Source: Halococcoides cellulosivorans
Lineage (GTDB): Archaea; Halobacteriota; Halobacteria; Halobacteriales; Haloarculaceae
Direction: 5' to 3'
NCBI RefSeq assembly: GCF_003058365.1
Contig: NZ_CP028858.1
Location: 1,116,001 to 1,180,000, forward strand
DNA: 64,000 bases
Part shown: piece after piece, positions 41,851-62,226 of the stretch
How positions within the stretch are numbered: position 1 is the first letter of the stretch
Layout of the letters: the number at the start of each line of letters is the position of its first letter
Made by a program: the position numbers and the translations under genes
The notes under the pieces: model-generated
Told to the model about the DNA's origin: nothing
Databases searched by the model: none
What the model saw: the letters and a program-made list of their open reading frames with translations, nothing else

Positions 41851-42948
41851 TCAGACCATCTCGAACAGCGCGAGGACGTCTTGCATATCGACGTCGCCGT
41901 CGCCGTCGAAGTCGAACTTCGCGTCGTTCGTGTCGTCGGTGTTCTGGAACAGGAGGTTCACGTCCGGGAAGTCGAGCTGGCGGTTCCCGTTGATGTCCTC
42001 GTAGAGGCCGTCGCCGTCGGGATCGGTCGCGTCGAGGGGCCTCGACGTCTCGGGCGTCGGACTCACGTCGAGAGCATCGAGCATGACGTCGGCGTATCGC
42101 TTGCCCAGTTCGCGATACCCCGCGGCGTCGAAGTGATACTGGTCCTGACCGCCCAGGCCCTCCGCAGAGACCACGTGCCCGTTGTCGATCACGTCGGGAA
42201 TCTTGGCGACCTCCTCGTTGTGTGCGGCACACGCTCCGCCCTGGTCGGCGTACAGCATCTCGCCCGCGAGGAAGGGGACCTTTCCGATGTCGAGATCCGC
42301 ACGGAGGTCCTCGTAGATGCCCTCGACGGCGTATTTCCACTCGGGGTCGCCGGTGTTGGTTTCGCCCTGGTGGAGCAAGATCCCCTTGATCGTGCCGACT
42401 TTCTGGGCTTGCTGGGCCAGGTCGAGCAGCCATTGGTACCCGCCCGGGAAATCGCGAGGCACCGAGTACTCTCCCGTTCCGATCGGCGCGCCCTTCTCGA
42501 ACAGCGCGATGTCACACCCGCTGACGGCGGCGGGGACCAGGCCGATCACCACGTCGTCGGGCGTCTCTTTGGCCATCTTCTTTCCGAAGTAGTCGCCCGG
42601 CCCGATCCCCGCCCAGCAGCGGTTCAAGGGTGGTTCGGCCAGGTACCAGGTGCCGTACGCTCGATTCAGGTCGGGACAGGTCTTGTCCTGGAGGACGCGC
42701 ACGTCCTCGCGGGTCTGTTCGTCTTCTGGCTCGACCGTCCCCTGGCCCTCCATGTTGGATTGGCCGAAGAGGAGATAGATGTGGACGTTCTCCGGATCGA
42801 CCGCGGGCGGCGCTTCCGTCGCCCCGGACGCGGTCCCGGCCCCCGCGAGTCCGAGTGTCGCGGCCGCCCCAGCGCTCAACACCCCCCGACGCGACCACTG
42901 CGTGTTCGGTGTATCCGATCTGTCTGGATCAGCCGCTGGGTCGCCCAT
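41851..42948 (-). CDS. Tat-exported CE6/SASA-type acetylesterase with dockerin
   Basis: 365 residues. The Tat signal is SRRGVLSAGAAATLG (~19-33). The SGNH-type esterase domain (~53-295) has the nucleophile LFGQSNMEG (Ser64), the oxyanion block LLHQGETN (~190) and the DxxH catalytic pair (Asp269, His272). CE6/DUF303 esterases deacetylate xylans or sialic acids. The C-terminal dockerin (~309-365) has loops EDINGNRQLDFPD and FDFDGDGDVDMQD. It would be secreted and could dock on a cohesin. Paralogue of the next gene upstream. ATG 42948. Confidence 0.88.
   Translation of the reverse strand: MGDPAADPDRSDTPNTQWSRRGVLSAGAAATLGLAGAGTASGATEAPPAVDPENVHIYLLFGQSNMEGQGTVEPEDEQTREDVRVLQDKTCPDLNRAYGTWYLAEPPLNRCWAGIGPGDYFGKKMAKETPDDVVIGLVPAAVSGCDIALFEKGAPIGTGEYSVPRDFPGGYQWLLDLAQQAQKVGTIKGILLHQGETNTGDPEWKYAVEGIYEDLRADLDIGKVPFLAGEMLYADQGGACAAHNEEVAKIPDVIDNGHVVSAEGLGGQDQYHFDAAGYRELGKRYADVMLDALDVSPTPETSRPLDATDPDGDGLYEDINGNRQLDFPDVNLLFQNTDDTNDAKFDFDGDGDVDMQDVLALFEMV
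42250..42516. repeat. Near-identical tract shared with the neighbouring esterase
   Basis: From 42333 to 42516 (184 nt) only three bases differ from 43741-43924, and similarity stays high back to ~42250, while flanking parts of the two genes are clearly more divergent. The pattern is that of gene conversion. Confidence 0.75.
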
Positions 42949-43230: not shown

Positions 43231-44355
43231 TCAGACCATCTCGAACAGCGCGAGCACGTCCTGCATGTCGACAGTTCCCTCACCGGTGAAATCGTAGAAG
43301 TTCGCGTTGTCCTGGACCGCCTGACCGTCCGTATTCTGGAACAACGTATTGACGTCGGGGAAGTCGACGCGGTCGTTCCCCGAGAGGTCCTCGTACAGGC
43401 CGTCGCCGTCGGGATCGGTCGCTCCCGACGGGTACGTCGGCGTCTCGGGGGTCGGCTCGGGTGGCGGACTCACGTCGAGCTGGTCGAGCATGACGTCGGC
43501 GTACCGCCGTCCGAATTCGCGGTACGCTTCGCTCGTAAAGTGCGCGACGTCCTGGCCTTCGAGGCCCTCGGCGGAGACGACGTGCGCGTTGTCGATGAGA
43601 TTGGGCAGTGTGTTGATCTCATCGTTGTGGAGGCCACAGCACCCGCCCTGTGACTCGTACAGCAGTTCGCCGGCGAGCAAGGGGACCGTCCCGATGTCGA
43701 GATCCGCACGGAGGTCCTCGTAGATGCCCTGGACCTGATCTTTCCACTCGGGGTCGCCGGTGTTGGTTTCGCCCTGGTGGAGCAAGATTCCCTTGATCGT
43801 GCCGACTTCCTGGGCTTGCTGGGCCAGGTCGAGCAGCCATTGGTACCCGCCCGGGAAATCGCGAGGCACCGAGTACTCTCCCGTTCCGATCGGCGCGCCT
43901 TTCTCGAACAGCGCGATGTCACAGCCGCCGACTGCGGCAGGGACGAGTCCGATCACGACGTCGTCGGGCGTCTCCTGGGCCATCCGTTTCCCGAAGTAGT
44001 CGCCCGGTCCGAGTTTCCCCCAGCACCGATTCAGGGGTGGTTCGGCGACGTACCAGGTGCCGTACTCCCGATCGAGGTTCGAACAGGTCTTGTCCTGGAG
44101 CACGCGCACGTCGTCGCGAGTCTCGCGGTCCTGTGGCTCTATCGGACCGACCCCTTCCATGTTGGACTGGCCGAAGAGGAGATAGATGTGGAAATTCTCC
44201 TCGCTCACCGACGTCGGCGGCGCTTCCGTCGCGGCCGAGGCCGCTCCGATCGCCCCTAATCCGAACGCAGTGGCGGCACCCGCGCTGAGGACGCCTCGGC
44301 GCGACACGGTGGTCCGATCTGTACGACGACTGCCGTCTCCCTCTGGAGTAGTCAC
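43231..44355 (-). CDS. Tat-exported CE6/SASA-type acetylesterase with dockerin, second copy
   Basis: 374 residues. The Tat signal SRRGVLSAGAATAFG (~18-32) is followed by the esterase domain with Ser64 in LFGQSNMEG, LLHQGETN and a DVAH catalytic pair (~270). A proline-rich linker (PPPEPTPETPTYP) leads to the dockerin (last 61 residues: EDLSGNDRVDFPD and YDFTGEGTVDMQD). GTG 44355 is chosen because only a TTG lies further upstream (44382); the TATA-like GTATGCAAAC is at 44371-44380. About 78% similar to the downstream esterase, with one tract almost identical. Confidence 0.86.
   Translation of the reverse strand: MTTPEGDGSRRTDRTTVSRRGVLSAGAATAFGLGAIGAASAATEAPPTSVSEENFHIYLLFGQSNMEGVGPIEPQDRETRDDVRVLQDKTCSNLDREYGTWYVAEPPLNRCWGKLGPGDYFGKRMAQETPDDVVIGLVPAAVGGCDIALFEKGAPIGTGEYSVPRDFPGGYQWLLDLAQQAQEVGTIKGILLHQGETNTGDPEWKDQVQGIYEDLRADLDIGTVPLLAGELLYESQGGCCGLHNDEINTLPNLIDNAHVVSAEGLEGQDVAHFTSEAYREFGRRYADVMLDQLDVSPPPEPTPETPTYPSGATDPDGDGLYEDLSGNDRVDFPDVNTLFQNTDGQAVQDNANFYDFTGEGTVDMQDVLALFEMV
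43741..43924. repeat. Conversion-tract partner in the second esterase
   Basis: 184 nt matching 42333-42516 with three mismatches; see the partner entry. Confidence 0.75.
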
Positions 44356-59348: not shown

Positions 59349-60827
59349 TTAGACCGACTCGAACAGTGCGAGCACGTCGATGTCGTTGACATTTCCGTCG
59401 TCGTTGTAATCGAACAGCTCGACGTTGTTCTGGACGACTGATTCGTCGGTGTGTTGGAACAGCGTGTTCACGTCGGGGAAGTTCACGCGTCCGTCGCCGG
59501 TGAGGTCTTCGTACAGGCCGTCGTCGTCTGGATCCGTGGGTCTCGCACCGTCGATCGTGGGGGCGGCATCGACGTACTCGGAGAGGTCGTGATAGACACT
59601 CATCATGTCACCATTGGTCAGGACTGTGCTTTCGGTGGCCATCGAGACGTCGACGACTTCGATGCCAGTGAAGCCGGCCCGCTGGCCGGCCACGGTGACC
59701 CATCCCAACGTGCCCGTGGAGTCCGCGTCTGGGACCGACTCGTCGACGGTGATCGTTGCGGTCCGATCGTCGACAGTGACCGATCCCTCGATGTCTTGGC
59801 GAACGTCACCGTCGGTGATCGTTGCGACACAGGGGTTCGACACCGCGACGGTGACCGACTCCAGGTCGGGGAGCGATCCGAAATCTTCCCAGAGTACGGA
59901 GATCGGGATCGTGTCGTCGACGGGCACTGGGTGATGGATTTCGGCGATTTCGACGACGCAGTCCGGATCGTCGTGGCTCCAGTTCGCCGCCGTCGTGACG
60001 GTGTCGGACGCTCCTGTCGACGTATCGACTGCGCGGACACCGATCTCCCCGGCTGTGACGTCGGCTTTTGAGAAGACGTTGGCTTCGGTCACTCCGACCG
60101 GAACGGTATTCTCGTCCGTTCCGTCGATCGAGACGACGTATTCGTCGACGACCGAATCACAGCCGTCGGCGGGATGATCCCACGAGACGAGGACCGAATC
60201 ACCCCGGTTCGGTCTGTAGTCGAGGGTCGTGGGTGGGTCCGGCCGCTCGTCCGCGACGCGAATCGTCCGCCGATCGTCTTCGACGATGCAGTCGTCACCG
60301 AGATACGATATTTCGAGAGTGACGTCCGTCGATCGACCGGCTGTCTTCCCTTGGAGCGTGAGTGTCGCGAGCGGCGGTTCGACACCGATATACCCGAACC
60401 AGGGTTCCTGAAATACCGACAGTGTGGCACGACGCCCGTCCTCGATAGTCGGTTGCGCGGTCAGATCACCGGGCGGTTCGAGGCCGGAGATCTCGACGAC
60501 ATCGGGGTCCTCGACTTCCACCGTTACGTCGTATCCCGCCGGCTGACAGCCCCCGACAGTCCATTTTTGAAGAACGACATCGGCAGTCACCGACTTCCCC
60601 GGTGCGACGACGTTCTGGTCCGGCCAGAGATGCGCCCGAGATGGTGGGTCGACAGTTCTTTGATCGGTCGCGACCAGTCCAGCGGCGATGTTCTGGTCTT
60701 CGCGTCCGATGCCTGCACCGACGACTCCAGCGATACTACCCCCTGCAACGACGGTTTTGAGGAACTGACGGCGTGACGAGTGCTCGCTGGCATCCGACAC
60801 CTCAGATCGAGGTCTTCGATCTCTCAT
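59349..60827 (-). CDS. Tat-exported multi-Ig protein with cohesin-like modules and dockerin
   Basis: 492 residues. The Tat signal is SSRRQFLKTVVAGG (~17-30). A cohesin-like beta sandwich (~70-190: VVAPGKSVTADVVLQ, CQPAGYDVTVEVEDPDVVEI, LATLTLQGKTAG) is followed by an FN3-like module (~195-285, VLVSWDHPADGCDSVVDEY) and a second Ig/cohesin-like segment (~295-410, SVTVAVSNPCVATITDG). The dockerin (~432-492) has EDLTGDGRVNFPD and FDYNDDGNVNDID. No catalytic site is visible. A TATA box is placed 28 nt upstream. Cohesin assignment rests on pattern only. Confidence 0.82.
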   Translation of the reverse strand: MRDRRPRSEVSDASEHSSRRQFLKTVVAGGSIAGVVGAGIGREDQNIAAGLVATDQRTVDPPSRAHLWPDQNVVAPGKSVTADVVLQKWTVGGCQPAGYDVTVEVEDPDVVEISGLEPPGDLTAQPTIEDGRRATLSVFQEPWFGYIGVEPPLATLTLQGKTAGRSTDVTLEISYLGDDCIVEDDRRTIRVADERPDPPTTLDYRPNRGDSVLVSWDHPADGCDSVVDEYVVSIDGTDENTVPVGVTEANVFSKADVTAGEIGVRAVDTSTGASDTVTTAANWSHDDPDCVVEIAEIHHPVPVDDTIPISVLWEDFGSLPDLESVTVAVSNPCVATITDGDVRQDIEGSVTVDDRTATITVDESVPDADSTGTLGWVTVAGQRAGFTGIEVVDVSMATESTVLTNGDMMSVYHDLSEYVDAAPTIDGARPTDPDDDGLYEDLTGDGRVNFPDVNTLFQHTDESVVQNNVELFDYNDDGNVNDIDVLALFESV

Positions 60828-60930: not shown

Positions 60931-61477
60931 TTAGACCGACTCGAACAGCGCGAGCACGTCCTGCAGGGTCACGCCATTCCCCGATTCGAAGTCGAACAAT
61001 CGGGCGTTGTTCGAGACGGCGTCCGTCCCGAGGTTCTGGAACAGGGTGTTCACGTCTGGGAAGTTGACCTCGCCGTCGCCGTTGAGGTCCTCGTACATCC
61101 CGTCGTCGATGTCGGCGGGAACGCTGCCGTCGATCGGGGGTGACGATCCCGTTTTGCCGCCGGGAATCGTCGCGACGGACTCGTTGACCCCCAGCGTCGC
61201 CCACTGCGTCCTGACGTGCCCGTCCGAGGCGGTGACGACGTCGTCGATACCACTCGCGTGTGACTGGCCGCCCGCCCCGTCACCTCGACGGTGGCGACCG
61301 TTCCATGGCGATCGGCCCCGTTGGGGAACCCCGACCAGTCGATGGTCACGGACGTGCCGTCGTCGGCGACGGTCGCCGTGCCCTCGAAGCGATCGGCCAC
61401 GGCCCCATCGTGATGTCGGCCGCACACGGCGTCGAGAGGCCGACCGTGATCGAATCGAGATCGGGAACCGCATCCAT
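60931..61477 (-). pseudogene. Decayed Ig-like/dockerin gene, truncated and frameshifted
   Basis: The 3' end encodes a clear dockerin (EDLNGDGEVNFPD, TLFQNLGTDAV, DVLALFESV), but its second Ca loop is degenerate (FDFESGNGVTLQD). Upstream, the Ig-like segment is spread over three frames: DLDSITVGLSTPCAADIT (frame 1), VADRFEGTATVADDG and WSGFPNGADRHGTVATVEV (frame 2), then SGIDDVVTASDGHV (frame 3). There are shifts near 61400 and 61260. No signal peptide remains; the sequence begins mid-domain at 61477, directly behind an AT-rich promoter-like stretch. It is a relative of the gene at 59349-60827. Confidence 0.8.
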
Positions 61478-61605
61478 GAAATATTTGCCCCGTATTGTGT
61501 TAAAATCAATCCGATCCTGTCATCGGTCTCGTGGCCGACCACGGGCGGGGACCACGCGGTTGCCGGGGCACCGTCACCCTTGTGTCTGGACCGTCTATCG
61601 ACACT

Positions 61606-62226
61606 ATGACCGAGAGCCACCCACTTTTCGCGGCGATTTACGATCCGGTGATGGCGATCGCCGAGCGGACTCTGCTTCGCTCCCACCGGCAGGCGCTCGC
61701 CGAGGGGATCGACGGGCCGGTGCTCGACGTCGGGACTGGTACAGGCGCAATGTTGCCCGTGCTGGCGGCGGCCAACCCCAGTGCGATCCACGCGATCGAA
61801 CCCGGTCCCGCCATGCGCCGGCGGGCCCACGCCCGGATCGAGAGCGACGACCTCGACGTGTCGGTTCGATCGGCCAGCGCCGAGTCGCTCCCGTACGACG
61901 ACGACAGTTTCGAGACGGTCGTGGCTGCGATGGTGCTCTGTACCGTCGACGATCCCGACGCGGCGCTCGCGGAGGTCGAACGCGTCCTCGTTCCGGGTGG
62001 CGAACTCCGCCTGTTCGAACACGTGGCCGACGAGGGGTGGCGCAATCGCGTCCAGGCGGCGATCGACCCTATCTGGCGACACGCGGCCGCAGGCTGTCAC
62101 CTGCGCCGGGCGACCGCCGAGCGCGTGCTCGACCGATCGGCGCTCGACGTGATCGCGATGGAGCGATTTCACCTCGGCGTCACGCCGGTCCGACCGTTCG
62201 TCCGTGGTCGGGCCCGCTTCGGTTGA
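61606..62226 (+). CDS. Class I SAM methyltransferase (UbiE/PEMT-like)
   Basis: 206 residues. SAM motif VLDVGTGTGAMLPVL (~40), ESLPYDDDSFETVVAAMVLCTV (two parts, ~92) and VLVPGGELRLFEHVA (~128). The substrate may be a quinone or lipid headgroup. ATG 61606. Confidence 0.85.
   Translation: MTESHPLFAAIYDPVMAIAERTLLRSHRQALAEGIDGPVLDVGTGTGAMLPVLAAANPSAIHAIEPGPAMRRRAHARIESDDLDVSVRSASAESLPYDDDSFETVVAAMVLCTVDDPDAALAEVERVLVPGGELRLFEHVADEGWRNRVQAAIDPIWRHAAAGCHLRRATAERVLDRSALDVIAMERFHLGVTPVRPFVRGRARFG

Follow-up and report, generated by a model that had tools for sequence, protein, structure and literature searches.

Adaptor scaffoldins are known from bacterial cellulosomes, for example ScaB of Acetivibrio cellulolyticus and ScaC of Ruminococcus flavefaciens, and cellulosomes have so far been described only in bacteria (anaerobic ones) and in fungi. 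The protein described here resembles these adaptors in being non-catalytic, apparently secreted and made up of cohesins with one C-terminal dockerin, but differs in that it is archaeal, predicted to be exported by the Tat route, carries an FN3 module between its cohesins, has divergent cohesin sequences, belongs to a high-salt organism and has no proven binding activity. To our knowledge, no multi-cohesin scaffold is known from Archaeoglobus fulgidus. The ORF2375/2376 cohesin-dockerin pair of this archaeon, which binds strongly (PMC9705933), is like the system of Halococcoides cellulosivorans HArcel1, the salt-lake haloarchaeon studied here, in that an archaeal cohesin and dockerin lie on adjoining genes, and an A. 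fulgidus structure (2xdh) is among the fold matches reported below; it differs in being a single, non-cellulosomal pair. A multi-cohesin plus dockerin layout has been described in archaea, in the scaffoldin-like proteins of ANME, where a single dockerin is accompanied by as many as five cohesins (PMC9012536); ANME, however, are not cellulose degraders, and the common dockerin partners are ABC-transporter binding proteins rather than cellulases (PMC9012536). HArcel1 was isolated for growth on cellulose. A paper that covers it mentions neither dockerins nor cohesins, and refers to the cellulosome solely as a model from bacteria (PMC10267330). The degradation of insoluble cellulose by HArcel strains is solely cell-associated, and their cells adhere tightly to this substrate (PMC4569967). 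In a 2025 review, archaea come up only in connection with the borrowed Archaeoglobus pair (PMC12484212), and we found no report of an archaeal cellulosome in the open-access collection searched (subscription papers were not covered).

Our analysis concerns one ORF in the window, i.e. the whole 64,000-nucleotide stretch of HArcel1 DNA that was analysed (Table 1). The initial annotation had read it as a 492-residue Tat protein without a catalytic motif, in which cohesin-like patterns occur twice, separated by an FN3-like module and followed by a dockerin, and the searches bear this reading out. The ORF opens with a twin-arginine motif (SSRRQFLKTVVAGG), matched by the Tat profile only below cut-off, and no catalytic domain was found with Pfam or NCBIfam. 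Dockerin_1 is matched at residues 439-488 (Pfam, E=5.8e-6, 26.9 bits against a gathering cut-off of 22.9), and both calcium-loop repeats can be seen in the dockerin sequence. The strings quoted in support of the cohesin patterns are those of module 1 (GYDVTVEVEDPDVVEI and LATLTLQGKTAG), and module 2 has looser counterparts (SVTVAVSNPCVATI and LGWVTVAGQRAG). The Pfam match of the separator is weak (residues 197-248), and it is phmmer that ties this module to the FN3 modules of paralogues. The protein itself lacks a membrane anchor. Its gene is convergent to an apparent urease gene cluster, with which it has no obvious common role. We propose an adaptor scaffoldin role for the protein, as part of a haloarchaeal cellulosome not described before, a reading to which we assign a probability of roughly 0.7, all binding steps, the choice of partners and the assembly being inferred.

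Table 1. Positions in the window of the ORF under study, its modules and two related copies.
Feature	Position	Strand	Basis or remarks
Target ORF, 492 aa	59349..60827	-	ATG start; Tat - cohesin 1 - FN3 - cohesin 2 - dockerin
N-terminal Tat-type signal region, residues 1-45	60693..60827	-	Sequence motif SSRRQFLK; TAT_signal profiles below cut-off
Cohesin module 1 (predicted), residues 66-194	60246..60632	-	A1 profile, hhalign, AF2, Foldseek
FN3-like module, residues 195-283	59979..60245	-	Pfam fn3 0.0022 (below cut-off); phmmer
Cohesin module 2 (predicted), residues 285-418, divergent	59574..59975	-	A6 profile, own profile, AF2, Foldseek
C-terminal dockerin, enzyme type, residues 428-492, two EF-hand-like loops	59352..59546	-	Dockerin_1
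Paralogue, 346 aa	2742..3782	+	Tat - FN3 - cohesin 2-like - dockerin
Decayed tandem copy beside target	60934..61700	-	Cohesin 2-like remnant 61236-61379 and dockerin 60934-61128, in different frames

The cohesin assignment had been made by eye, and would have been refuted had a fold search placed both segments in unrelated Ig families, which it did not. The AlphaFold models of module 1 (pLDDT 86.9, pTM 0.82) and module 2 (pLDDT 83.3, pTM 0.78) both fit the nine-stranded beta-sandwich expected of a cohesin, to judge by their leading fold matches. In Foldseek searches of the PDB, the top 26 matches of module 1 (E down to 8e-7) and the top 31 of module 2 (E down to 2e-7, 2xdh included) are all cohesins, with TM values of about 0.6-0.7 for both modules. 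The closest folds to module 1 are the cohesins of Clostridium perfringens GH84C and GH33 (2jh2, 2w1n, 2vo8), one of which, 2w1n, is a cohesin-FN3 construct; these cohesins differ, however, in being part of catalytic enzymes of a bacterium, and share only 11-16% identity with module 1. The models confirm that both modules are predicted to adopt the cohesin fold, while the binding of dockerins remains an inference. Since the alignments used for modelling included cohesins of the family, the fold search cannot count as wholly independent evidence for the assignment.

Searches of Pfam and NCBIfam and a single-sequence search of the PDB with the target found no cohesin, and the resemblance appears only with profiles and folds. 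A profile built from seven other cohesin-like modules of the HArcel1 genome (A1) matches 15 copies in that genome, among them module 1 of the target (E=1.1e-4, and 81 bits after its inclusion in the profile), with reversed decoys doing no better than 0.16. Module 2 is matched at 2.5e-5 by a second profile (A6) built without any module-2 sequence, and a three-sequence profile of module 2 matches the cohesins of proteins of about 900 aa ending in cohesin-dockerin from other haloarchaeal genomes (best 2.2e-7). In hhalign comparisons, module 1 as a single sequence scored 94% both with haloarchaeal Pfam cohesins and with the new cohesin-like family, compared to 5% against CARDB-like repeats and 0.5% against FN3 as controls; the module-2 family scored 70% against the new family and 44% against cohesins, with controls at about 0-2%. 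Cohesins and CARDB-like repeats themselves cross-match at 76-89%, indicating that beta-sandwich profiles are not perfectly specific. Six members of the archaeal family alignment match Pfam Cohesin (best 1.8e-6), and in the PDB the family profile matches best to a cohesin from Ruminococcus scaffoldin C (ScaC, 0.0042); an Archaeoglobaceae cohesin used as lone query found no PDB relative. The idea that the two modules come from an unrelated Ig-like family and resemble cohesins only superficially could draw on the few non-cohesin beta-sandwiches further down both Foldseek lists and on the absence of a Pfam cohesin match for the target, but is scarcely tenable in view of the cohesins that lead both lists, the near-zero scores of the FN3 and CARDB-like controls and the Pfam Cohesin matches reached by family members.

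A cellulosome would be expected to bring together many dockerin-bearing plant-polysaccharide enzymes in one genome, and HArcel1 meets this expectation. Its genome (G000, a single contig of 2,723,120 bases) has 67 Dockerin_1 matches, all but one of which (66) fit a single profile (A3). The dockerin is very C-terminal in 63 of the 66, and none of these 63 has a C-terminal anchor; the C-terminal dockerins have a consensus of approximately DPDGDGLYEDLSGDGxLNFPDVNxLFQ..YDFxGDGxVDxQDVLALFExV. The dockerin proteins include 21 GH5, 5 GH10, 3 GH9 and 2 GH43 enzymes, and lectin-like modules and CBMs are also found among them. SASA is matched by two of the 66, and two neighbouring paralogues with C-terminal dockerins in the window, at 41854-42948 and 43234-44160 (-), are probably SASA-type carbohydrate esterases. 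The dockerin of the target deviates from those of the enzymes at only 2 of the positions conserved in at least 85%, and should therefore dock where the enzymes dock.

The most likely docking site lies on a 732-aa ORF (within a 770-aa frame, at about 381.7-383.9 kb of G000), a putative primary scaffoldin that starts with a Tat signal and an unidentified module, continues with three cohesin-like modules, of which two are almost the same, and ends in a dockerin of deviant sequence. The N-terminal module had no match to a known CBM, and its identity as a CBM was not confirmed by the searches. The dockerin of the multi-cohesin scaffoldin is the most deviant among the sequences compared both in HArcel1 (66 sequences) and in G264, a member of the same family (12 sequences), and the two scaffoldin dockerins are reciprocal best matches, at 53% compared to own-genome averages of 43% and 48%. 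This is the pattern expected if they bind other cohesins, for example anchored ones, than the enzyme dockerins do. The target, whose dockerin, unlike that of the scaffoldin, is of the enzyme type, combines it with two cohesins and no catalytic domain, as an adaptor should, and it is this combination that leads us to consider it one. At least three cohesin proteins of HArcel1 (frames of 332, 913 and 1672 aa) have a C-terminal membrane anchor, and the longest has a PGF-CTERM match just below cut-off; the PGF-CTERM-like ends or C-terminal membrane helices of these and other cohesin proteins, read here from sequence, are what would be expected of cell-surface anchoring cohesins. Anchorless dockerin enzymes together with anchored cohesins would account for the cell-associated degradation of cellulose. 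Within this cellulosome-like system, which spans the genome, the target plays only a small part, and other proteins are better candidates for the main scaffoldin.

Pfam recognises only two cohesins in HArcel1, both in a separate beta-helix/anchor gene pair. A pairing of the 67 dockerins with these two cohesins was considered and dropped, because they belong to this separate gene pair and because there is hardly any co-occurrence between Pfam cohesins and dockerins of this type. At one locus (L033:6220-8363), a beta-helix protein with a Pfam cohesin and a different dockerin adjoins a protein composed of a signal peptide, a cohesin and a membrane helix, and represents a separate canonical pair. 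Elsewhere in the HArcel1 genome (G000:C1:2063939-2066095, -), a three-cohesin Tat protein is encoded in tandem with an anchored one-cohesin protein, and the C-terminus of the former (GDYLIGDISLEDAVTVMRAYFF) looks like one half of a dockerin.

The association between the new cohesin family and this dockerin type extends well beyond HArcel1. Among 292 haloarchaeal genomes, the cohesin family occurs in 125, the dockerin type in 130 and both in 115, giving an odds ratio of 117, compared to 1.9 for Pfam cohesins and the same dockerin. Cohesin and dockerin counts are correlated (Spearman 0.87 over all genomes, 0.72 among genomes with both, where dockerin counts of 21 mean at least 21 and HArcel1 was entered with its C-terminal dockerin count). 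Related species do not count as independent observations, and the co-occurrence figure is inflated by proteins in which both domains are present. In the named genomes scanned, 13 of the 15 loci found by cohesin alone also have this dockerin type, encoded either together with the cohesin in one gene or close by; these loci come from Haloplanus, Halorubrum, Haladaptatus, Halopiger, Natronobiforma, Archaeoglobaceae, Geoglobus and methanogen-related archaea. At two of them (L175 and L178) cohesin and dockerin lie on separate neighbouring proteins, and the cohesin protein has a lipoprotein-like start. These data bear on the proposal that haloarchaeal dockerins bind substrate rather than cohesins, which would make the cohesin-like modules unrelated surface domains. 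It has been put forward for the dockerins of haloarchaeal GH26 enzymes and GAG lyases, without a test reported in the passages concerned (PMC10963439; PMC13260240). We consider it very improbable, as the dockerin type and the cohesin family co-occur and are adjacent across the Euryarchaeota, including on separate proteins, as the target modules have a predicted cohesin fold, and as the A. fulgidus cohesin and dockerin bind each other strongly (PMC9705933).

Exactly two cohesins are present in 48 of the 67 genomes that have a single dockerin, and the pattern in the loci read is that of a protein of about 900 aa ending in cohesin-dockerin beside a small cohesin protein whose C-terminus is a membrane helix. 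The one large protein tested (L162) has a PhoX domain. This gene pair is conserved in haloarchaea (L162:3228-6696, L164, L166, L168, L169) and is possibly an ancestral surface tether. Larger systems occur in two other genomes. In G264, one cluster encodes an apparent GH5 dockerin protein, a cohesin-dockerin protein, an anchored cohesin and a scaffoldin whose 1040-aa frame holds a dockerin in addition to five cohesins. Natronobiforma cellulositropha has at least 21 dockerins plus an anchored cohesin, and a single ORF of this archaeon, interrupted by the contig end (L177:3121-6681), combines GH5 with five cohesins and is, to judge by its sequence, a putative catalytic scaffoldin. A broader reading would be that haloarchaea have true cellulosomes in which cohesins and dockerins pair with at least two specificities, that these arose more than once out of an ancestral archaeal pair, formed by a PhoX-type phosphatase that also carries cohesin and dockerin and by an anchored cohesin next to it, and that the target is one adaptor among their parts; we hold the odds on this reading as a whole to be even.

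The architecture of the target recurs elsewhere, as the initial annotation had suggested should be looked for. Natronobiforma cellulositropha has two proteins with the order Tat-FN3-cohesin-FN3-cohesin-dockerin (frames of 612 and 646 aa), a Halopiger locus has cohesin-FN3-cohesin-FN3 beside dockerin genes, and there are two further relatives in HArcel1, where a 594-aa frame has the order FN3-cohesin-FN3-cohesin-dockerin. The adaptor-type layout is supported by these architectures and by the fold searches. The cohesins of the target nevertheless lie on long tree branches (1.85 and 1.67 changes per site), and their partners may consequently have been lost or changed; support in the cohesin tree is too weak to assign specificity groups. 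It is possible, though unlikely, that the two modules have kept the cohesin fold without dockerin binding, and serve as spacers or as carbohydrate- or surface-binding parts of a dockerin-tethered accessory protein. Their long branches, their low identity to the scaffoldin cohesins and the FN3 spacers that both divergent modules adjoin are compatible with such a role. Yet the core strands persist, as does much of the family motif, a closely similar FN3/cohesin/dockerin layout has been kept in another genus, and other members of the family are the only module of anchored proteins, for which binding a dockerin is the evident role.

We therefore retain the adaptor scaffoldin reading. The protein would be exported by the Tat route, its dockerin would occupy the cohesins that also receive the cellulase dockerins, most likely those of the 732-aa primary scaffoldin, and its own two cohesins, with FN3 between them, would add two receptor sites for other dockerin proteins, resulting in a branched complex. 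The 66 dockerins, the multi-cohesin scaffolds and the membrane-anchored cohesins would together form a cellulosome that holds the cellulases between the cell surface and the cellulose. If this is true, the cellulosome principle would reach a third domain of life, represented by an aerobic archaeon of nearly salt-saturated habitats, where docking that depends on calcium would have to function at 4 M salt; the current substrate-binding reading of haloarchaeal dockerins would also be corrected. The HArcel1 system also supplies candidate salt-stable cohesin-dockerin pairs. Ordinary Pfam cohesins can be numerous in haloarchaea as well: two genomes of genus g33 (G042 and G207, contig 1) have 13-14 of them in clustered large ORFs.
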